This document shows positions 2 through 21,338 of a stretch of 22,823 nucleotides of DNA, in pieces. The notes below the pieces were generated by a model. It was not told where the DNA came from and did not search any database. It saw nothing but the letters and a program-made list of their open reading frames with translations. The position numbers were made by a program, and so were the translations under genes. Origin of the DNA: a virus. The DNA lies in the IMG/VR virus record IMGVR_UViG_3300032304_000606, positions 1-22,823 of that record. One strand, written 5' to 3'. Every line of letters begins with the position of its first letter. Position 1 is the first letter of the stretch.

Positions 2-2200
2 ATGCATTTTTGGAGTCCTGCAAAGTTCTATCAAGGTGCCACAATGGCCATGCGTGGAGTTGAATTTGATGAAATTGTACGACATATCACACAAGATCAA
101 CCAGCACAGTTTGAAGCTACCGGCGATAGCAAGTTTGATGCCATGATGGGCAAAATAAGCAAAGACCCTTGGACACAATTGAACTCAGACCCTAATTGGG
201 AATACGAAATAGAAGAACTGGTTGATCAGCACATTGAACCATGGTTGTTGGCCATGGAAAAAAGTGGCATGCCAATTACACGAGACAACAAGACCTTGAA
301 TCCCGGCTGGAGAAAACGTTACGAGCAGATATCGACTCAGCTGGCCCAGAAGTATCTGGCTTCTAAAAAATTCAATCCCAGAGATCCTGACCTGGTTGGC
401 AAAATCCGTGCTGCCATAGATAATCATACCGACCAAAGCAGAAACGTACACGGACAGCTGAGTGCCTACGCCAACGACCTGCCCATGCAACGCTATGCAG
501 ACGCATTTGATGCAGATGGAATGACTGCCAACATACGTGATGCCATAGCAGGGGTAGCACCCCGTGATGATGACGATGACGGATATGCACCACGTCCAGC
601 GGCCAATCCACGCAAGCTGGATCCAGGCAATATGGAAGAAACCAAAGCAGATCCAACCGGTAGTTGGGTAGTGTACAATGGTAACAAAATCAAGCGTTTC
701 AAATCACATACCGGTGCCAAGGCATACGCTGAAAAGAATGGTGGCAAGGTTGCAAGTAGCGAGTTCTATGCTGATCGGATTCAGAAACCAGTAAACGAAC
801 TTGATGTTAATACCCTAAAGAGTTATGCAGACAAGCGTGGTGCACAGGTTGCCGCAATGAAAGCTGACAATCCTAATCCAGTTGCAGGCAGTAAAGAATG
901 GGTTCAACAAGCAGTTCCAGCACAGCAGGTAAATCTTGCAAAACGTAAGATTGCTCGCAAAGAACGCCAACAAGGTGTAGGCGAAGCTATTGTTGCCAGC
1001 GGCCCAAGTCGTCCTCTAGATGATCGTGCTATTAGAAAAATGGTCTGGGACACAATGAAGATCAATGCCGACACAGGCGAACAAGCCTTACAACGTGCTC
1101 TTGCTGTGTTGGCCAAAAAGCCACAGAGCCGTATGGTTCAAGATCTACAAGACAAGTTTCAAAATCTAGCTGATCGTTTGGCACAAGGCATAACAGAAGG
1201 TGCAATGAGCAACCTACACGCAGAGTTATCAGATGTTTATAATCGCTTGGCGCCTGGTATTGAACGCAACAGAGACAGTTTCAAAGCCGGCCAACTGTAT
1301 GACGCCTTAGAAGCTGTTGCAGAACAACACGGTGCCGAGGCCGAATTTAAACGCATGATGAACGGTGCTAGAAATCGTGCGCACATGGACTACGATACTA
1401 ACCCAGGTGGTTTCCACAACTGGTTCTGGTACTTGCCATTTGCTGAAGACGATGTAACAGAAGGTTGGAAACAGAATGTAGCGGCTGGAATATTGGGTGC
1501 TACTATGGCATTGGGTGCGGCACCAGTTAGGGCAGACACTGGCATCAATGTAAATCCAGTTCAGGTACAACAAATGCAACAGCAGTCAAGTTTAACACAA
1601 AAATATGTCGATGCGTTGGTTCAACGTGCAAAAGATGATGGAAAACCAATAGATACACGCACAATGAATTCTATAAAAGCCAAGGCATCAGATATGGCTG
1701 CTAAACAGATACAAAAACAAAGTGGCGCACAACAACAAACACAACAATCAAACTTTCCCTCACAAGGTAGTGAAAGAATGACCAGTCCTAACTACAACAA
1801 GTTTGAAGATGAAATGTCTGAAAGCCTAATGAAGGAACCTACCAATCGTAAAGAGTATTTGGATCAACGCGACAAGTTATTCCGTATGATGGCAGTCGAT
1901 TCTAATCCGGCTAACAAACAAATTATTAAACAAGCCCTACAAGATTTAGAAGCACGGTACGGTAACTTAAAGAAAGCTGTAAAAGAAGAATTCAGCACTG
2001 ACAGTGAAGCGGTTGAACGTGCTATTCTTAATCGTATTATGGTTGCACATACAGACTTGTTGATGAAGTTTGGCCCAGAAAAAGTCATGCAGGCCGCAGA
2101 AGAAGTTGCTTACAATGTAGGCGATGTAGACGAAATTGGCACCAGTGATGTAAGTGCTTATGTTGCACAAGTAAAACAAATACTCGGAGCCGTCGCTTGA
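2..2200 (+). CDS. Large phage protein of unknown function, 5' end open
   Basis: I do not recognise a function. The reading frame is open to the window edge, so the first ATG may not be the true start; 732 residues are visible. It is hydrophilic and probably multi-domain. An Asp-rich linker lies near residue 190, followed near residues 222-260 by a small basic block (VVYNGNKIKRFK) that I remember from other marine phage proteins. A hydrophobic, signal-peptide-like stretch ending in APVRAD lies at about residues 492-508, and Gln-rich low-complexity sequence follows it. Three sites fit the T4 gp21 prohead-protease pattern ([ILV]-x-E-[AG]): V326-A329, I397-G400 and V485-G488. A virion or prohead component cut during maturation is one reading, but short motifs like this also occur by chance. 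The next gene starts inside its stop codon. Confidence 0.75.
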   Translation: MHFWSPAKFYQGATMAMRGVEFDEIVRHITQDQPAQFEATGDSKFDAMMGKISKDPWTQLNSDPNWEYEIEELVDQHIEPWLLAMEKSGMPITRDNKTLNPGWRKRYEQISTQLAQKYLASKKFNPRDPDLVGKIRAAIDNHTDQSRNVHGQLSAYANDLPMQRYADAFDADGMTANIRDAIAGVAPRDDDDDGYAPRPAANPRKLDPGNMEETKADPTGSWVVYNGNKIKRFKSHTGAKAYAEKNGGKVASSEFYADRIQKPVNELDVNTLKSYADKRGAQVAAMKADNPNPVAGSKEWVQQAVPAQQVNLAKRKIARKERQQGVGEAIVASGPSRPLDDRAIRKMVWDTMKINADTGEQALQRALAVLAKKPQSRMVQDLQDKFQNLADRLAQGITEGAMSNLHAELSDVYNRLAPGIERNRDSFKAGQLYDALEAVAEQHGAEAEFKRMMNGARNRAHMDYDTNPGGFHNWFWYLPFAEDDVTEGWKQNVAAGILGATMALGAAPVRADTGINVNPVQVQQMQQQSSLTQKYVDALVQRAKDDGKPIDTRTMNSIKAKASDMAAKQIQKQSGAQQQTQQSNFPSQGSERMTSPNYNKFEDEMSESLMKEPTNRKEYLDQRDKLFRMMAVDSNPANKQIIKQALQDLEARYGNLKKAVKEEFSTDSEAVERAILNRIMVAHTDLLMKFGPEKVMQAAEEVAYNVGDVDEIGTSDVSAYVAQVKQILGAVA

Positions 2201-2751
2201 GATATCAAGAAATTATTGAAGCCTGCTGGACAGGGTACCAACAACAGGGCATGAAGAAAAAGGGTGACCGTCAAGTGCCTAACTGTGTGCCGGTGCAGGA
2301 AGCCACAGACATATTTTTGGACAATGCAGCCAGAGAAATGATGGCTGTGTTGTTTACAATGGGTGCTGGACTCAGTTACGGTGTCTATCTCAAGATACGC
2401 AACAAGTTAGACCGATACCAAGGTTATCAGATTGTGTCTGCTCTAGAAAACAAGGGTGTTACCATGAATCGTGAAACTTATCTCAAAGTCAAACCCGCGC
2501 TGGATCAATTCCGCCAGGCCCTAAAAGACAATAATGGTGCAGAAGCCAAGGCTTTGGCCAAGGGTATAGAACAAATGATCATCATGGGCAAGTTGTCAGC
2601 ACCCGAACCCCAAGCCGCAGATGCCGCCAAGGAACGAGGGTCACAAGAAAAAGTCAACGAAAAATGGAGTCAAAAATACAAAAGCAGTATCAACTGTGCC
2701 AACCCCAAAGGCTTCTCACAAAAAGCTCACTGCGCCGGCAAGAAAAAATGA
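2197..2751 (+). CDS. Unknown 184-aa protein bracketed by two Cys-containing phage motifs
   Basis: It starts at a TTG that overlaps the upstream stop (TTGA), with a CGGAG ribosome site 8 nt upstream at 2184-2188. Residues 10-32 carry the pattern CW.GYQQ.GMKKKG..VPNCVP, and the last 28 residues carry INC.NPKGFSQKAHC.GKKK. From memory both short motifs recur in otherwise unrelated proteins of aquatic T4-like phages; no function for them is known to me. Between them lie a moderately hydrophobic segment (about residues 48-64) and a charged, Ala/Lys-rich helical region. Paired cysteines at both ends could bind metal or form disulfides (inference). It is translationally coupled to its neighbours, so it probably works with the large protein before it and the deaminase-like protein after it. 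Confidence 0.75.
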   Translation: MRYQEIIEACWTGYQQQGMKKKGDRQVPNCVPVQEATDIFLDNAAREMMAVLFTMGAGLSYGVYLKIRNKLDRYQGYQIVSALENKGVTMNRETYLKVKPALDQFRQALKDNNGAEAKALAKGIEQMIIMGKLSAPEPQAADAAKERGSQEKVNEKWSQKYKSSINCANPKGFSQKAHCAGKKK

Positions 2752-3383
2752 AAATCAGTGATTTTGAAATTACCAATCACGACAAGTTGGATGCTATCCT
2801 GGTGCGTCTTTGCGAGATGGTTGTGGAAGGTCAATACAAAAAGAAATTGAATCTTGGTGTGGTGGCGGCCGCAGTACTGGATCCAGACAATAACTGTGTG
2901 GTGGGCATCAACTATCCCACCAAGGACGGTCGACGTGTTCATGGTGAGCGAGCAGCTATTGACAGTTATGAGGCCCGCTTTGGGGCCATCCCGGCTGGTA
3001 GTATCATTATCACAACCTGTAGTCCTTGCACCCAACCCATGGCGGAACGGTCCGGTATTAACTGTAGTGATCTCATTGACGAAGTAGGTGTACACAAGGT
3101 ATATGCTGGTTATAAGGATCCCACACAGGATTTTGACGGTAAACGATATCACATTGAAGTAACACGCAATCCTAAAATTCAGGCATTGTGTAAGGCCTTT
3201 GCTGACACATTTTTAAAAGATGAACTTAACGAACTTGAATTTTTAGGATCGCCATGTACTAAAGACTGCTCAGGTCATAGAGCTGGCTATGCATGGAGTC
3301 AAAGCAAAGGCGGACGTGTTGCACAAAGCCCATTCAGCCCCAGCTTTAATAATGGTAGCCAGCTTCATGTAGACGGTAAGTAA
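2748..3383 (+). CDS. Cytidine/deoxycytidylate deaminase-like protein with extra C-terminal Cys/His tail
   Basis: 211 residues from an ATG that overlaps the previous stop (ATGA). The zinc-dependent deaminase signature is visible as H65-G-E67 followed by C91-S-P-C94; in this superfamily the His and two Cys hold zinc and the Glu shuttles the proton. The order and spacing fit a cytidine or dCMP deaminase fold. A separate tail with C170-TKD-C174-SGH.AGY.W follows, then an Asn/Ser-rich end with SFNNG. I recall this tail motif from unrelated phage proteins, so it looks like a mobile module. The substrate (free nucleotide, nucleic acid or other) cannot be told from sequence. A frame reading upstream into the previous gene exists, but the coupled ATG at 2748 fits better. 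Confidence 0.7.
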   Translation: MKISDFEITNHDKLDAILVRLCEMVVEGQYKKKLNLGVVAAAVLDPDNNCVVGINYPTKDGRRVHGERAAIDSYEARFGAIPAGSIIITTCSPCTQPMAERSGINCSDLIDEVGVHKVYAGYKDPTQDFDGKRYHIEVTRNPKIQALCKAFADTFLKDELNELEFLGSPCTKDCSGHRAGYAWSQSKGGRVAQSPFSPSFNNGSQLHVDGK

Positions 3384-4238: not shown

Positions 4239-5303
4239 ATGCACATTGACACTCTTAAATTTTACAAATATATTCCAGTTAAAAAACCTATATATAACGG
4301 AAAATTTTGCCAAATACCATTTACTACACTACAAATTGATCTAGACGGTGATGTGCAATTATGTGGATGCCAACTTCATATGCCGTATACTATTGGCAAC
4401 ATTTACAACAATACATTACAAGAAATTTGGTTAAGTCACTCTGCTGAGCAAGTTCGTCAATCAGTATTAGATGGTGATTTTACTTATTGCAATTGGGCTT
4501 GTTCGGTATTGCCAAATTTACCGTTGCGCCCAAGTCAGTTGCCAGTAGCAACCCCTTTTCCAAAAATAATTAAAATAGATCTTGATAGATCATGCAATCT
4601 TAAATGTCCCAGTTGTCGTGAACACGTGATTATTGAAAAAAACTCTGCACGCATTGATAAACAAATTGAACTGTACACTCAAATAAAACAATATGCTTTA
4701 GAAAACCCCAACACCGACATCATAATAATGCCACTTGCTAGCGGAGAAATATTTGCTAGTCATAGTGGTTTAGAATTTTTAAAATCATTAATTGACTATC
4801 CTTTTGATAATCTAAAAATAGAAATTACAACTAATGGTACATTAATAAACAAAAATAAAAAATTAATTAAAAACATTGGTCATTTGATTAAATCTTTTTC
4901 TGTAAGTATTGATGCTGCCACTCCTGAAACATACCGTCAGGTACGTGGTGGAGATTGGAACGAACTATTATTAGGACTAAACTTTATAAAAGAGTTAGGC
5001 ACGTACTCTTTAAAGTTTAATTACTGTATACAAAAAAATAATTTTCATGAGATTGAACAATTTGCCCAATTTGCCAATTCTTTTGGTGCCAATATATATT
5101 ATCAAAAATTATTAGATTGGGGACATTGGACTATTGCATGGTGGCACGATAATAATGTGTTTGATCGAACTCAACCATCGTTTGAATCTGCACTTGAAAT
5201 GCTTAAAAGAGTCAAACAAACATATCCTAAAAAAATTTACATGATGGCAGAACTAACCAAATATTTAGAAAAACAAAAAAATGCGGTTGACTTTACTGAA
5301 TAA
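4239..5303 (+). CDS. Radical SAM protein with N-terminal SPASM-like cysteine region
   Basis: 354 residues. The radical SAM cluster motif is C119-NLK-C123-PS-C126, which binds the [4Fe-4S] cluster that cleaves S-adenosylmethionine. Ahead of it, C24, C42, C44, C84 and C88, with the phrase IDLDGDVQLCGC and then IGNIYNNTLQEIW, look like a SPASM auxiliary-cluster domain. SPASM normally follows the radical SAM domain; here it comes first. Such enzymes usually modify peptides or sugars and need more than one Fe-S cluster. The substrate is unknown. The size and extra cysteines argue against QueE. The gene is visibly more AT-rich than its neighbours, sits between two non-coding gaps, and has no Shine-Dalgarno sequence. 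It may be a recent acquisition with its own late promoter. Confidence 0.8.
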   Translation: MHIDTLKFYKYIPVKKPIYNGKFCQIPFTTLQIDLDGDVQLCGCQLHMPYTIGNIYNNTLQEIWLSHSAEQVRQSVLDGDFTYCNWACSVLPNLPLRPSQLPVATPFPKIIKIDLDRSCNLKCPSCREHVIIEKNSARIDKQIELYTQIKQYALENPNTDIIIMPLASGEIFASHSGLEFLKSLIDYPFDNLKIEITTNGTLINKNKKLIKNIGHLIKSFSVSIDAATPETYRQVRGGDWNELLLGLNFIKELGTYSLKFNYCIQKNNFHEIEQFAQFANSFGANIYYQKLLDWGHWTIAWWHDNNVFDRTQPSFESALEMLKRVKQTYPKKIYMMAELTKYLEKQKNAVDFTE

Positions 5304-9319: not shown

Positions 9320-10042
9320 ATGAAAGATCACTTACTAGACTTAGTAGAACACACTTACGACCTAGGTTGTATTGACCTAATCAAGATCACCGGCGACGAT
9401 AAGTCAACAGCGATCAACGGATTGGCCGAGGACCGTAGTGTTATTGTTGACGGTGCTTTTGCTGGCCCAGTAGCAGACTTTATTGGCACGTTTGGTATGC
9501 CAAATTTGAGTAAGCTCAAGGTATTGTTGAATCTGCAGCCCTACAAAGAAAATGCCAAACTTGCTATTACACGCAAGGATACAGGTGCATTGGATCAACT
9601 TACATTTGAAAATGCTGAAGGCGACTTTAAAAATAGTTATCGCTTTATGGCCACCGAAATCATCAACGAGAAATTGAAAAACGTCAAGATGAAACCAGTT
9701 ACATGGCACATTGAGTTCGAACCTTCTGTAGCCGCTATTCAAAGATTAAAAATGCAGGCGGCTGCTAATGCCGAAGAAGTTAACTTCAAGGCAAGAACAG
9801 ACGGCAAAGATTTGAAATTTTTCTTTGGTGATCATTCAACCCATGCAGGTAACTTTGTATTCCAACATGATGTAGGTGGCACACTCAAACGTGAATGGTC
9901 TTGGCCAGTTAAGACTGTGATTAGTATTTTAGATCTAACCGGTGACAAAGTTATGCGTATCAGTGATGATGGCATTGCTGAAATTACTGTAGATTCAGGA
10001 TTGGCTACTTATAGCTTTAAACTTCCAGCACAAAGCAAGTGA
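9320..10042 (+). CDS. Sliding clamp, T4 gp45-like DNA polymerase processivity factor
   Basis: 240 residues (T4 gp45 has 228). The clamp is a trimeric ring that tethers the DNA polymerase to DNA; in T4 it also activates late transcription. I base the call on length, position downstream of a gp43-type polymerase, and a mixed alpha/beta pattern in two halves: an N-terminal lid-like DLIKITGDD..TAINGLAEDRSVIV, and a C-terminal FKARTDGKDLKFFFGDHS with a closing VDSGLATYSFKLPAQ. No single motif proves it, because clamps are poorly conserved. It has a strong ribosome site (GAGGAG) and its own promoter. Its TGA overlaps the GTG of dpdA (GTGA), so the two are probably made together. Confidence 0.75.
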   Translation: MKDHLLDLVEHTYDLGCIDLIKITGDDKSTAINGLAEDRSVIVDGAFAGPVADFIGTFGMPNLSKLKVLLNLQPYKENAKLAITRKDTGALDQLTFENAEGDFKNSYRFMATEIINEKLKNVKMKPVTWHIEFEPSVAAIQRLKMQAAANAEEVNFKARTDGKDLKFFFGDHSTHAGNFVFQHDVGGTLKREWSWPVKTVISILDLTGDKVMRISDDGIAEITVDSGLATYSFKLPAQSK

Positions 10043-11664
10043 TTGAACAAGACAACCTAACAGCCAAGCAAAAAGATTACGCTGTATTCTTGCCAGCTAT
10101 TAGTGGCTTCTATGCTACATTTATTGGCAAACAACGTGATCCTGTTGCAGGTCCGTATGTAGATCTGGCTCGTATGCCTGCAGGAATTCCAGATATGGAA
10201 CAAATGAATTGGCTCAACAGTCAGAAAGGATTGTTTCCTTATAAGTGGTCGCTTTACTCTGGTGGGCATGCTAACTTGGATTTAAACAAGCAGGACTGGT
10301 CAGAAGACATGGTTCGCAATCGTGAACCTGGCACACTCATGTTGGGCGACTCTGGAGGATTTCAGATTGCCAAAGGTCTATGGGAAGGCGATTGGAAAGC
10401 AAACTCAGGTTGCCCAAAGGCCCAGAAAAAACGTGATGCTGTTTTAAAGTGGTTAGATGGTGTTGCTGATTATGGCATGATTCTTGATATTCCGACTTGG
10501 GTTATTCATGATAAGAAAGCCAGTGCCGCTTGCCAAATTACCACACTACAAGAAGCAGTAGACGCCACCAAGTACAACAACGATTACTTTATGAAACACC
10601 GCAAGGGTGTTGCCAATGGAGGAGCCAAGTTCTTAAATGTACTACAGGGTGCCAATCATGCTGATGCAGATCGTTGGTATGAACTAATGAAAGACTATTG
10701 TAATCCTGCGGTGTATCCAGACACACACTTTAACGGCTGGAGCATGGGCGGACAGAACATGTGCGATGTGCATTTAGTACTACGCAGATTAGTAGCATTA
10801 CGTCACGACGGCCTGCTCAAAGAAGGAGTTCACGATTGGATGCACTTCTTAGGCACAAGTAAACTAGAATGGGCAGTATTATTAACTGACATTCAACGTG
10901 CTGTACGTAAGTATGTTAATCCTGCATTTACCATCAGCTTTGACTGTGCCAGTCCATTCTTAGCCACTGCTAATGGACAAGTGTACCACCACATTGATTT
11001 GCCACACAATGAAAAGTGGTGCTATCGTATGAGTCCTATTGTGGACGACAAGAAGTTTAGCACAGACACAAGATCATATCGTGATGGTGTGTTGGCCGAG
11101 GGCTTTGTTAAACACTTTGATGAAAGCCCAATCAGCAAGCATTTAAAGATGAAAGATATCTGCATCTACAAACCAGGTGTGCGTAAAACAGATGCTGAAC
11201 TAAACGGTGAAACATTTGATCCTAATAACCTGACACACTTCCATACTGCGCCAGATCTAAACAAGATTGGTAAAAATGGCAAAACAAGTTGGGATAGTTT
11301 CAGCTATGCCTTGCTAATGGGTCATAATGTTTGGATGCACTTGGAAGCAGTACAACGTGCTAATCGTGAATATGACAACGGTTCGTGGCCTGCTATGATG
11401 TGGAATCAAAATGGTGATCATGCTCGCTTCAAAGATATTGTGGACGCTATCTTTGCTACCACAGATCGTGCTGAGGCTGAAGCCATTATTGAATCGTATG
11501 ACCGTTATTGGATGGACATTGTAGGCACTCGTGGCTTCAAAGGCAAAAAGGCCAAGAATGCCATGAGCATGTTTAACAATTTATTTGAAGTAGAGGACGA
11601 TGGCGTTGACAGTGACGATATTGATTTGGATGAAAATAAACTAGACGAGTTGGAGGCTCAATGA
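10039..11664 (+). CDS. dpdA: DpdA-like DNA guanine transglycosylase (7-deazaguanine insertion)
   Basis: 541 residues, resembling tRNA-guanine transglycosylase (TGT). Visible signatures are LG-D104-SGGFQ (general acid and base pocket), VL-Q203-GAN, G233-WSMGG, HFLGTSK, and F-D302-CASPF carrying the probable nucleophilic Asp. The TGT zinc site (CxCxxC) is absent, as expected for DpdA, which swaps guanine in DNA for preQ0 or a derivative. With folE and queD in the same window this supports a DNA-modification role over tRNA. An acidic tail (EVEDDGVDSDDIDLDEN) ends the protein. It starts at a GTG overlapping the clamp stop codon with no good Shine-Dalgarno, so it depends on coupled translation. 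QueE and QueC are not present in the window. Confidence 0.87.
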   Translation: MIEQDNLTAKQKDYAVFLPAISGFYATFIGKQRDPVAGPYVDLARMPAGIPDMEQMNWLNSQKGLFPYKWSLYSGGHANLDLNKQDWSEDMVRNREPGTLMLGDSGGFQIAKGLWEGDWKANSGCPKAQKKRDAVLKWLDGVADYGMILDIPTWVIHDKKASAACQITTLQEAVDATKYNNDYFMKHRKGVANGGAKFLNVLQGANHADADRWYELMKDYCNPAVYPDTHFNGWSMGGQNMCDVHLVLRRLVALRHDGLLKEGVHDWMHFLGTSKLEWAVLLTDIQRAVRKYVNPAFTISFDCASPFLATANGQVYHHIDLPHNEKWCYRMSPIVDDKKFSTDTRSYRDGVLAEGFVKHFDESPISKHLKMKDICIYKPGVRKTDAELNGETFDPNNLTHFHTAPDLNKIGKNGKTSWDSFSYALLMGHNVWMHLEAVQRANREYDNGSWPAMMWNQNGDHARFKDIVDAIFATTDRAEAEAIIESYDRYWMDIVGTRGFKGKKAKNAMSMFNNLFEVEDDGVDSDDIDLDENKLDELEAQ

Positions 11665-16177: not shown

Positions 16178-16990
16178 ATGCCTAAATATGTGTCACCTGA
16201 AGAACAAAAAATAGAAGATTTAAAATCACGAAAATATGCAGAAGAAGCACCGTATCATCCTGGGTACGAAGATGCCGCAATGAATGATAAAGGCTACGAA
16301 GAAAAGAACTTAGCAGATGCTATCCGCTTTAATATGAAGCGTGATAAGAAACGTTTTTGGGCCGGTGACAACATCAGCGACTACTTGCACGAAGGCGATA
16401 AAGAAATCTTAATCAACGAAGCTACAGAAGCGTTTGAACGGGTTCTAGATACGCTATTAATTGATCGTGAGAACGATCCAAATTCAAAAGGCACAGCACG
16501 CAGACTTGCTAAAATGTATTACAACGAAATTATGGGAGGTCGATATGATCCAGCACCAGATGCAACAGCTTTTCCAAATGATTCGGCGGATAGATATGAG
16601 GGTATGCTTGTTGTTCGTAGCGAATTGCGTTCTATGTGCAGTCATCATCATCAGCCTGTGTCTGGTGTTGCTTACATCGGAATCATCGCCGCTAATAAAC
16701 TTATTGGCCTGTCTAAATATACTCGGATCGCTCAGTGGTGTGCTCGTCGTGGCACACTTCAAGAAGAACTATGTAACGACATTGCAAGAGAAATCATGCG
16801 AGCAACAGAAAGTGAAAACGTAGGTGTGTATATTCAGGCCACACACGGTTGCTGTGAAAATCGCGGCATTATGGCACACTCTAGCCTAACACAGACCACA
16901 GTACTTCGAGGTAGCTTTCAAACAGACCCAGGAACTAAAAAAGAGTTCATGGACAATATCAAACTACAACAGGACTTTGCGCCACGATGA
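16178..16990 (+). CDS. folE: GTP cyclohydrolase I
   Basis: Converts GTP to dihydroneopterin triphosphate, the first step toward 7-deazaguanines (and folate). 270 residues against 222 in E. coli; the extra length is a charged N-terminal extension of about 50 residues with no domain I recognise. Zinc and active-site residues are present: M-C154-S-H-H157 (E. coli C110 and H113) and H223-G-C225...R229-G (E. coli H179, C181, R185). The stretches YIGIIAANKLIGLSK and ARR.TLQEEL are typical of FolE. It has its own strong promoter and a good ribosome site. Combined with dpdA and queD it points to DNA modification rather than folate supply. Confidence 0.95.
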   Translation: MPKYVSPEEQKIEDLKSRKYAEEAPYHPGYEDAAMNDKGYEEKNLADAIRFNMKRDKKRFWAGDNISDYLHEGDKEILINEATEAFERVLDTLLIDRENDPNSKGTARRLAKMYYNEIMGGRYDPAPDATAFPNDSADRYEGMLVVRSELRSMCSHHHQPVSGVAYIGIIAANKLIGLSKYTRIAQWCARRGTLQEELCNDIAREIMRATESENVGVYIQATHGCCENRGIMAHSSLTQTTVLRGSFQTDPGTKKEFMDNIKLQQDFAPR

Positions 16991-17607: not shown

Positions 17608-20061
17608 ATGCGTAAGGTACGGGTGTTTAATAGGACTGCTATAGCTCTAGCTGTTTCAACCGTTTTCCTATTATCGGCTTGTGCCGGCGGTGGCGGCGGC
17701 GCAAACAATCCAGGTAACAATGTGCCGCCTACACAAGGTAGTGGCCCGTCAGTTCCTTATGCCACTCCGGTTCGAGTTGGATCTATTACTCCTATAAACA
17801 GTGCAGTATATGAATACGACTCTAGTGCATTATACTCTGAAAATCTCGTTGGCACCGGCGAATCATTAATTACCGCAGGTCGTTCTGGCACAACCAACGG
17901 CGGAAGTTATCCAACCTATAATTTAAACATTTTTGATTGGGAAAATGGCCAATTAGTAAACAAAACCAATCGGTGGTTTTCTGGTACAGACAATGTTATC
18001 CTAGGCACCGAACCTAGCCTAAAATTTGGCGACCTTAATGGCGACGGCAAGCGTGATATGTATGTGGCGCCAAACACAGATAATGGCGGCACTGCTGGCT
18101 CCGGTTGGTTATTCCTTAATAATGGATCTAGTTTTACCAGAGTTAATTTAGGACTTAACATTAACGGACATGATAGTGCTATTTACGATATTAACAGAGA
18201 TGGTGTTGATGATATCTTTACTACTGGTAGTAAGGTTGTGTTTGGATCACGTATTAACAATTTTGTTGCACACACAGTGTCAGGACAGGATTATGGCGGT
18301 GCAGCAGGTTCGGTTGCTATTGCAGACTTTATGGGTAATAATACCGGCACAGTCATCCTTACTGACCAAAATAATTTCCAGGCCGGTGGTACTAGATTGT
18401 ACAGTTGGGCTATGACAGATGGTGGAAGGCCCACTTTAGATTTTGAATTAACAAAGATTAGTGCGCTGCCGTCATCGAGATTTTTTCTTCCTAAATGGGC
18501 GTCTAATGGATTTAGTGGCAGTCATGATTATCGATCGCTGGCATTTGACTTTGATAACTCTGGATTGACCAGTGCAGTTATTTTTAGTAGGCCTGTAATG
18601 GCCAATGGTACTTGGCCCGAGTTTAATGAGATTCAATTCTTAAAAAATCGAGGGGGTGGCACCTTTATTGATGTAACAGACACCACCCTAGTGGGCTACA
18701 ACACCGCATCTTCGTCGCAACATTATAACCCCAAGATTATGGATGTAAATAGCGACGGACTATTGGACATAGTATTAACTGGAACCAGTTGGAGTGGCAC
18801 TACCGGCGCTCAAGTACTGATTCATACCACCGAGCACAAGTATGTATCCAGCTATGCCGCTGTTATTGATGCATTTGTTGGTCAATCTGCTAATCTTGAA
18901 AAAGCAATTAATGCCAGTGCCGCATCGGGTGCCAATGGAATTGCGTTTGTCAAGGGGGCCGACGGTAGTATGTATCTTGCTACTGCTATTAGTTACACTG
19001 GCAATGGTACACAACAAAAAGCCATTTACCTTAGTAAGTTAGGAACAAACACCACTACAGCACAAGCAACTGTTAATTCTATTAAACAAGTATGGCCATG
19101 GATGAGCGATGCGCAGGTCAATACTGTATTGGCACAAAGCTCAACCACATGGTTTGGTATGAATGTATTAGACCCGGACAAGGCCTTTCAGCCCATTGGT
19201 AACTTGGGCATACCGTTATCTACCGGTGGCGTCGCACCTATACGGGGTTACATTACAGGCTTAAACATTGGTGACGGTGCGGCTGTGGTCACTGACAGCG
19301 TGGGCAGATCCTTTAACACAAACATCAAGCCCATGAACATATCTGCTATTAATGCTTTTGGATACAATACACAGCACAACGATCAGTACGAACTGACTAG
19401 TCATGCTGAATACTTGGTCAATGGATCATTAACAACTGTCAACGGCATGCGAGTGGGCGCTGACTTTGCAGGTCGCGATGCCAACGGGATGGGTCTAAAC
19501 AAGCCCACTCAATACACGGTGGGGGTACCCGGCTGGTATCGTAAAGGTTCTTGGAGCATGGGCACACAATATACCTATTTGAACACTAATCCGTGGATGG
19601 CATTTGGTGGCGCTTGGGGAGAGGTAAACGGATCCGGTATCATGGACAATGTGGTCACTTATCGTAAAAATGGATTTTCGGCTCAGGCCAGTGCTATGCA
19701 TGTGACTACTAACATTACACCAGGTTTGGTCACTAGAGTTGACAACATGTGGGGCACCTGGGCTGAAACTGGTTATAGATTTGGTCAGGCAAAAGAAAAT
19801 GGTGATCTTGGCCTGTATGCCGGTATCAAGCCTGTGGTGTTGTCCGGTAACGTCCAGGCCAAAATACCCACAGCGGTTGACAGTGCAGGCAATATAATGT
19901 ACACTAACAAAAAGTTGATGGTACAGAATCAGACTACTGGTTATATTCGAGCACTATATACCAATCAACTTACTAAGGATACTCAGTATAGATTTAGTGC
20001 AGTTGCCACACAACAAGGACAGTACCGAATCATGAATGAATTTAGATGGTGGTTAAATTAA
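17608..20061 (+). CDS. Secreted lipoprotein with FG-GAP/VCBS repeats and C-terminal beta domain
   Basis: 817 residues. The N-terminus is a lipoprotein signal: basic start, hydrophobic core, lipobox L22-S-A-C25, then Ala at +2 (outer-membrane sorting) and a Gly-rich linker. Residues about 140-390 hold calcium-binding FG-GAP/VCBS repeats: D142-LNGDGKRD, D194-INRDGVDD, D379-VNSDGLLD and a weaker D314-FDNSG, as in beta-propellers. From about residue 530 the protein is rich in Gly, Asn, Tyr and Trp with alternating strands, and ends YRIMNEFRWWLN, close to an outer-membrane beta-barrel end signal. I recall this C-terminal module behind S8 protease domains in phage proteins; here a propeller takes that place. 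It has its own promoter. It could be a host-surface receptor blocker, an adhesin or a virion protein. Confidence 0.8.
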   Translation: MRKVRVFNRTAIALAVSTVFLLSACAGGGGGANNPGNNVPPTQGSGPSVPYATPVRVGSITPINSAVYEYDSSALYSENLVGTGESLITAGRSGTTNGGSYPTYNLNIFDWENGQLVNKTNRWFSGTDNVILGTEPSLKFGDLNGDGKRDMYVAPNTDNGGTAGSGWLFLNNGSSFTRVNLGLNINGHDSAIYDINRDGVDDIFTTGSKVVFGSRINNFVAHTVSGQDYGGAAGSVAIADFMGNNTGTVILTDQNNFQAGGTRLYSWAMTDGGRPTLDFELTKISALPSSRFFLPKWASNGFSGSHDYRSLAFDFDNSGLTSAVIFSRPVMANGTWPEFNEIQFLKNRGGGTFIDVTDTTLVGYNTASSSQHYNPKIMDVNSDGLLDIVLTGTSWSGTTGAQVLIHTTEHKYVSSYAAVIDAFVGQSANLEKAINASAASGANGIAFVKGADGSMYLATAISYTGNGTQQKAIYLSKLGTNTTTAQATVNSIKQVWPWMSDAQVNTVLAQSSTTWFGMNVLDPDKAFQPIGNLGIPLSTGGVAPIRGYITGLNIGDGAAVVTDSVGRSFNTNIKPMNISAINAFGYNTQHNDQYELTSHAEYLVNGSLTTVNGMRVGADFAGRDANGMGLNKPTQYTVGVPGWYRKGSWSMGTQYTYLNTNPWMAFGGAWGEVNGSGIMDNVVTYRKNGFSAQASAMHVTTNITPGLVTRVDNMWGTWAETGYRFGQAKENGDLGLYAGIKPVVLSGNVQAKIPTAVDSAGNIMYTNKKLMVQNQTTGYIRALYTNQLTKDTQYRFSAVATQQGQYRIMNEFRWWLN

Positions 20062-20813: not shown

Positions 20814-21338
20814 ATGGCAAAATATCTTTCAACAAAAACATACGGCACAGATCGTGGACTTTCATGCTGTTTCCGTCAGTGGCGCAGTACACACAGCCAT
20901 TGCAGTCTATTACATGGATACTCAATTGGTATCAAATTAATTTTTGAATCAGAGACCTTAGATGATCGCAATTGGGTTATGGATTTTGGCGGACTCAAGG
21001 CATTCAAAGAATGGAGCGACTATGTGTTTGACCATACTTTGGTTGTTGCCGAGGACGACCCTCACTTGAAGTTGTTCGAAACTATGGCTGGACTTGGACT
21101 ACAAGACCAAGGCGGTATTTGTGATCTTAGAATTGTAGAAGCTGTGGGCTGTGAAAAATTCAGCGAGCTTGCATACAAAGAAATGAATTATATTCTCAAA
21201 ACATATCAACAAGGGCAAGAATATACATTGCCCAACGGTAAAACATTCACTGCACGTTATCCAGTGGGTCAAGGAGTACGATTGCGTAGTGTAGAAGTAT
21301 TCGAACACGCCGGCAACAGTGCTGTATATGAAGGGTAG
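20814..21338 (+). CDS. queD: QueD-like 6-carboxytetrahydropterin synthase
   Basis: 174 residues; E. coli QueD has 121. The QueD/PTPS fold converts dihydroneopterin triphosphate to 6-carboxytetrahydropterin, the second step to preQ0. Visible residues are H27 or H29 (first zinc ligand), C30 (catalytic Cys), L-H34-G-Y36, WVMDFGGLKAF and the F-D73-H74 pair. The usual LHGH is LHGY, so the third zinc ligand is Tyr unless the neighbouring His replaces it. The extra length is mainly an insertion before the C-terminal region (YTLPNGKTFTARYP). It has its own promoter and a strong ribosome site, and shares promoter style with folE although 4.6 kb away. Confidence 0.88.
   Translation: MAKYLSTKTYGTDRGLSCCFRQWRSTHSHCSLLHGYSIGIKLIFESETLDDRNWVMDFGGLKAFKEWSDYVFDHTLVVAEDDPHLKLFETMAGLGLQDQGGICDLRIVEAVGCEKFSELAYKEMNYILKTYQQGQEYTLPNGKTFTARYPVGQGVRLRSVEVFEHAGNSAVYEG

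Follow-up and report, generated by a model that had tools for sequence, protein, structure and literature searches.

We analyzed a 22.8-kb window, an IMG/VR fragment which encodes a T4-type DNA polymerase and in which no Rfam families or tRNAs were found. Two overlapping neighbors near its beginning, an ORF for a 184-aa protein (2197-2751) and a deaminase ORF (ATG at 2748), carry three short Cys motifs, here named HEAD, TAIL, and SGH. The 184-aa ORF starts with TTG, which overlaps the TGA of the preceding gene, and a Shine-Dalgarno-like GGAG lies 7 nt 5' of this codon. The features are as follows, a slash marking the predicted cut.

2..2200, plus strand: 732-aa multi-site ORF, possibly truncated by the window edge, adjoining the 184-aa gene upstream
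2123..2197, plus strand: C-terminal DVDEIGTSDVSAYVAQVKQILGAVA of the 732-aa ORF, a recurring end
2197..2751, plus strand: ORF of the 184-aa protein (putative targeting peptide, HEAD, core, TAIL)
2197..2220, plus strand: predicted capsid-targeting sequence MRYQEIIE with cut site IIE/A, compared with MKTYQEFIAE/A of T4 IPII/IPIII
2221..2301, plus strand: HEAD module ACWTGYQQQGMKKKGDRQVPNCVPVQE, flanked by IIE/A and VQE/A
2302..2661, plus strand: core of the 184-aa protein
2662..2748, plus strand: TAIL module KWSQKYKSSINCANPKGFSQKAHCAGKKK, preceded by VNE/K, net charge +8
2748..3383, plus strand: deaminase with C-terminal SGH tag (PF00383, E 1e-8)
2748..2777, plus strand: MKISDFEITN, a start of M[RK]xx[ED]F type without a cleavable Glu
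3225..3233, plus strand: LNE/ site, in a low-confidence linker between deaminase and SGH
3234..3380, plus strand: SGH module LEFLGSPCTKDCSGHRAGYAW...DGK, a two-helix mini-domain

All three motifs are present where a preliminary description of this DNA had placed them: CWTGYQQQGMKKKGDRQVPNC at aa 10-30 and INCANPKGFSQKAHC close to the C-terminus of the 184-aa protein, and CTKDCSGHRAGYAW at aa 170-183 of the deaminase, 28 residues from its C-terminus. Only its HEAD pattern had to be corrected, the gap from KKKG to VPNC being three residues rather than two. The 184-aa protein contains exactly three [LIVMF]xE sites (IIE8/A, VQE35/A, and VNE155/K), each at a module border, which divide it into start peptide, HEAD, core, and TAIL. 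Relatives of the core were limited to two of the fetched loci (L038 and L283).

The identification of the second protein as deaminase-like was confirmed by PF00383, a deaminase fold, and HxE and PC...C zinc ligands; the ligands H65, E67, C94, and C106 are invariant in 26 family members. In an AlphaFold2 model built from 26 aligned sequences, the deaminase domain is mostly confident and SGH forms a separate helical mini-domain; the linker between them (residues 158-173, pLDDT <50) holds LNE162/. Foldseek placed the domain nearest to RibD and TadA deaminases (best matches 2hxv and 6l2m).

The upstream 732-aa ORF has [LIV]xE sites at aa 72, 266, 328, 399, 487, and 662. Its relative in G020, a record related to the window, is 1161 aa long, and the multi-site protein of L319 and L262 is encoded as a single ORF with TAIL at its end. 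The recurring C-terminal end (DVDEIGTSDVSxYVxxVxQILG) was also seen after the SGH tag in L243, an apparent in-frame hybrid, and by eye it is similar to the ends of scaffold proteins from cyanophages (SMNAYVQALSR). Behind VTE/ of the same ORF, GWKQNVAAGILGATMALGAAPVRA (window 1463-1560, aa 488-519) is a signal-peptide-like hydrophobic stretch. The same GW...A-x-A segment is found again in G020 and in the L270 protein, which has an SGH tag.

Elsewhere in the window (4239-5303, 10039-11664, 16178-16990, and 20814-21338), a radical SAM protein and a GTP cyclohydrolase were identified by PHROG matches, and nearby ORFs look by eye like TGT/DpdA-type and QueD-type enzymes; together they are possibly a 7-deazaguanine DNA-modification set. 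An 817-aa ORF (17608-20061), for which no PHROG match was found, has a lipoprotein-like signal (LLSACAGG) and, by eye, FG-GAP/VCBS-like repeats.

Recurrence of the three Cys modules in unrelated proteins

HEAD, TAIL, and SGH are real interchangeable protein pieces which recur in unrelated proteins. A tblastn search of isolate phages with the 184-aa protein returned 373 records, nearly all cyanophages (E down to 1e-9), most of which align solely over ~30 residues at the beginning or end, i.e., the tag parts. Matches to the HEAD tag came from six different PHROG families, each with the tag at a different position. IMG/VR was scanned with exact degenerate DNA patterns, which yielded at least 119 stretches per motif, and at least 118 HEAD loci, 148 TAIL loci, and 119 SGH loci were obtained. 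The carriers are mostly T4-like aquatic phages. HEAD may be N-terminal, internal, or C-terminal, or may make up almost an entire protein of 31-44 aa; TAIL is found at either terminus or internally, and SGH usually 26-33 residues from the C-terminus.

After the tags were masked (50% reciprocal coverage, carriers having ≥60 aa of other sequence), carriers among the matches listed fell into 39 (HEAD), 61 (TAIL), and 25 (SGH) families. The pattern search across phage proteins thus bears out the earlier proposal of exchangeable tags on unrelated aquatic phage proteins, since carriers belong to many families and have the tags at varied positions. Occurrence of each motif in a single orthologous family, named there as the refuting case, is excluded because the masked carriers form many families and the ends of the deaminase family vary. 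Members of this RibD-like family end in SGH (the window and L235), a DUF6321 module (L165), a "FADG...NMK" module (L191 and L125), or no module (L213).

No sequence match in Pfam, NCBIfam, or PDB names any of the three modules, and no description of them was found in the open-access literature searched. SGH was not found in isolate phages apart from one chance match. Cellular relatives of SGH were found in 86 bacterial stretches (L357-L442; Mesorhizobium, Pseudomonas, Patescibacteria, and others); these small proteins have four conserved Cys residues (TFxGYxCTxDCSGHxAGYxWA...C...SFxEGC) and most, by eye, a signal peptide or lipobox. This apparently unnamed bacterial family has no Pfam or NCBIfam match. 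The SGH domain was predicted to be a two-helix hairpin (pLDDT 93.7), for which Foldseek gave non-significant matches only (best, anaphylatoxin-like modules, E 4.8). Invariant C and H residues of the tags are compatible with zinc, as in the metal clips of the preliminary description, but disulfides fit better, because the tags carry even numbers of Cys and SGH has secreted four-Cys relatives; the tag Cys residues may therefore form disulfides.

Border sites, targeting-like starts, and virion proteins

A [LIVMF]-x-Glu triplet lies at a fixed offset before each module, with Glu at -2 (HEAD), -12 (TAIL), or -8 (SGH) relative to the first Cys. We take its hydrophobic residue and Glu to be the P3 and P1 residues of the site of the T4 prohead protease (gp21). 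Among the matches listed, the triplet was exactly in place in unrelated contexts (upstream 25 residues <30% identical) for 27/56 HEAD, 44/50 TAIL, and 27/36 SGH modules, against a background of ~2% per position (P = 1.9e-31, 1.9e-68, and 7.2e-39, respectively). Where TAIL lacks the triplet, the start Met is often at its position. A triplet also follows HEAD within 6 aa in 69% of cases versus 9% in the control.

The rule was also applied to three further modules from these proteins which had played no part in forming the idea. The CYKVK and WFxxKWV modules follow it (99% vs 30% and 82% vs 21% in any-position controls, respectively), but the DUF6321 module, which occurs in the same proteins, does not (14% vs 39% in the control). 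The latter counts against cleavage, as do the absence of the site from 17 of 62 TAIL modules in loci with T4 markers and the residue after Glu, which is often K, L, or P, whereas T4 internal proteins have A. As a side observation, the major capsid proteins S-CREM2 gp145 (L353) and S-SZBM1 gp176 (L355) begin HLTEKWAP and HLQEKWAP, which by eye resemble the [VI]SE/KWS border of TAIL.

HEAD was also detected in another kind of phage, which has portal phrog_1216 and terminase phrog_38. Here the gene lies ~1.3-2.0 kb behind the portal gene and the module begins near Met. The triplet precedes HEAD in 0 of 11 such phages versus 34 of 41 loci with T4 markers; the 11 cases are related to each other and thus represent one or few independent events. 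Small HEAD-WFxxKWV proteins behind the portal were noted in eight non-T4 loci (L102, L113, L030, L035, L060, L110, L119, and L025).

In T4, gp21 cleaves behind a short motif whose last residue is Glu. The internal proteins have a capsid-targeting sequence of 10 residues; mutants assign its residues 4 and 7 to targeting and 8 and 10 to processing, and targeting can persist when processing is lost (PMC9026906). T4 IPII and IPIII begin MKTYQEFIAE/A, and IPI begins MKTFKEFT. Similar starts are present in tagged proteins: amino-terminal TAIL and SGH proteins begin MRAxEF[VI]xE (e.g., MRAEEFVTE, MRATEFISE, and MKASEFVSE), and HEAD proteins MKTFKQFTE/ACW. An M[RK]xx[ED]F start was found in 59 of 231 tagged versus 68 of 3553 untagged ORFs. 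The short N-terminal MRYQEIIE/A of the 184-aa protein resembles MKTYQEFIAE. The deaminase start MKISDFEITN has Asn at the Glu position, and the protein may therefore be targeted yet keep its start. Most targeting-like starts of G020 cluster at 190-200 kb, a region which also holds the SGH-deaminase, a protein with TAIL-HEAD-DUF6321 architecture, and the relative (1161 aa) of the 732-aa protein. On the other hand, S-CREM2 gp160 and many Met-start TAIL proteins lack a targeting sequence, which counts against the cleavage model, as does the missing Glu in the targeting-like start of the deaminase family.

Of the 21 long tagged records, 12 encode Peptidase S77 (gp21), among them three (G019-G021) that carry SGH-deaminases; the window is only a 22.8-kb fragment. 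One tagged protein, S-CREM2 gp160, was identified in a published virion proteome by 7 unique peptides (S-CREM2 and S-SZBM1 proteomes: PMC10665884, PMC9146016). It contains a HEAD variant, NLEE/KKNCWPGYEKKGTKKMFGKEYNNC, bordered by LEE/ and ISE/, with a CYHKVK module behind ISE/G, and DUF5872/DUF6321-type modules also occur in the S-CREM2 virion proteins gp160 and gp137. No such virion-proteome match is known for the window phage, TAIL, or SGH.

Non-structural virion proteins, enzymes among them, have T4-like starts in S-CREM2 (gp6 MKDFDSFLEE, gp14 VKRFDAFLTE, gp154 MKNFSSFLTE/A, and gp136 MQTFSMFFSE) and S-SZBM1 (gp140 MRFRQFIIE/A) (PMC10665884, PMC9146016). In S-CREM2, 5 of 7 such starts belong to virion proteins (P = 0.006), which is weak, some starts having been known before the regular expression was fixed. 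The S-CREM2 authors noted that carry-over is possible in virion proteomes, which counts against the model.

Possible functions of the modules and comparison with known systems

The tags are probably modules of proteins which lie inside the head and are matured there by the prohead protease. Exchangeable modules of ~27-50 aa would be built into head-internal proteins of T4-like aquatic phages, and a capsid-targeting sequence of 8-10 residues would take the precursor into the prohead core. There, a gp21-type protease is predicted to cut behind [LIV]-x-Glu, which would free the targeting peptide and part the modules from each other and from their cargo (deaminase, nucleotidyltransferase-like, and other cores). 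The products would be packed with DNA and exit the head at infection. The proteins of the window would likewise be present in virions, and SGH of the deaminase would still be cut off at LNE/. Since modules would become free pieces, shuffling, fusion, and splitting at the gene level would be harmless. Cutting at the borders would also explain how modules can have genes of their own in one phage but be fused in another (L319 and L262), why they occur in any order, and why one cargo is seen with different ends. Released peptides may adopt disulfide-stabilized folds and, more speculatively, as basic peptides, associate with DNA and leave with the genome.

SGH is predicted with confidence to fold as an independent two-helix domain, its relatives in cells occur on their own after a signal peptide, and some tagged proteins lack the targeting start. 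These observations would suit ordinary small zinc or disulfide binding domains of cytoplasmic proteins, with [LIV]xE as an uncut linker or helix cap. We consider this rather unlikely: the same triplet is common to three unrelated modules at different fixed distances, is absent in phages without T4 markers, and also ends the T4-like starts, and gp160 of S-CREM2 is a virion protein. The preliminary description had suggested packaging or docking signals, and tags acting as such signals for the prohead core and staying attached would agree with their presence at either end of otherwise unrelated proteins. However, most proteins with an amino-terminal TAIL or SGH already begin with a T4-like targeting peptide, close homologs without SGH retain similar starts and cargo, and stand-alone HEAD proteins of 31-44 aa have nothing to dock, which makes this explanation improbable. 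The suggestion was nevertheless close; the likely signal is the 8-10 residue T4-type start (MRAxEFVxE), and the tags follow the cut site.

Differences in architecture among relatives are so great that the tags might be viewed as a neutral outcome of promiscuous recombination with no common role. Yet Cys residues and their flanks are near-invariant across hundreds of contigs, which implies selection, and a neutral origin therefore appears highly implausible.

Returning to maturation by the prohead protease, a broader but tentative extension is that aquatic T4-like phages might deliver with their DNA a combinatorial protease-released payload, made as virion polyproteins of shared Cys mini-domains and enzymes, whose alphabet would also be used in unrelated phages and, for SGH, in bacteria as extracytoplasmic disulfide domains. 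The modules are carried by hundreds of cyanophage genomes (373 and 366 records). With the sequence rule (targeting start plus hydrophobic-x-Glu borders), one can predict which "hypothetical" proteins of T4-like aquatic phages enter the head, so that what these phages inject becomes a directly testable question.

Parts of this arrangement are found in known systems. The window deaminase shares the fold, HxE...PC...C ligands, and long Cys spacing with RibD-/TadA-type deaminases but differs in its exchangeable C-terminal module and targeting-like start. DUF5872 and DUF6321 are sister basic Cys modules within the same proteins; they have Pfam models, whereas no model in Pfam or NCBIfam matches HEAD, TAIL, or SGH. 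Prohead processing in phiKZ and SPN3US also involves Glu-specific cuts in many inner-head proteins with multiple sites each, and diverged proteins with identical starts (PMC5694885); in contrast, the consensus is AxE or SxE, propeptides are long, and Cys modules of the present kind are not described. Features in common with T4 IPI, IPII, and IPIII are a start of 8-10 residues (M-K/R-x-x-E-F-hydrophobic-x-E), a hydrophobic-x-Glu cut site, varied cargo behind the conserved start, and, in many tagged phages, a gp21-type protease. The T4 proteins are single small proteins which lose a short propeptide, whereas tagged proteins have several unrelated Cys modules in series, each preceded and often also followed by a site, and these modules are shuffled between enzymes and polyproteins. 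By analogy, this suggests a mix-and-match version of the T4 internal head proteins.
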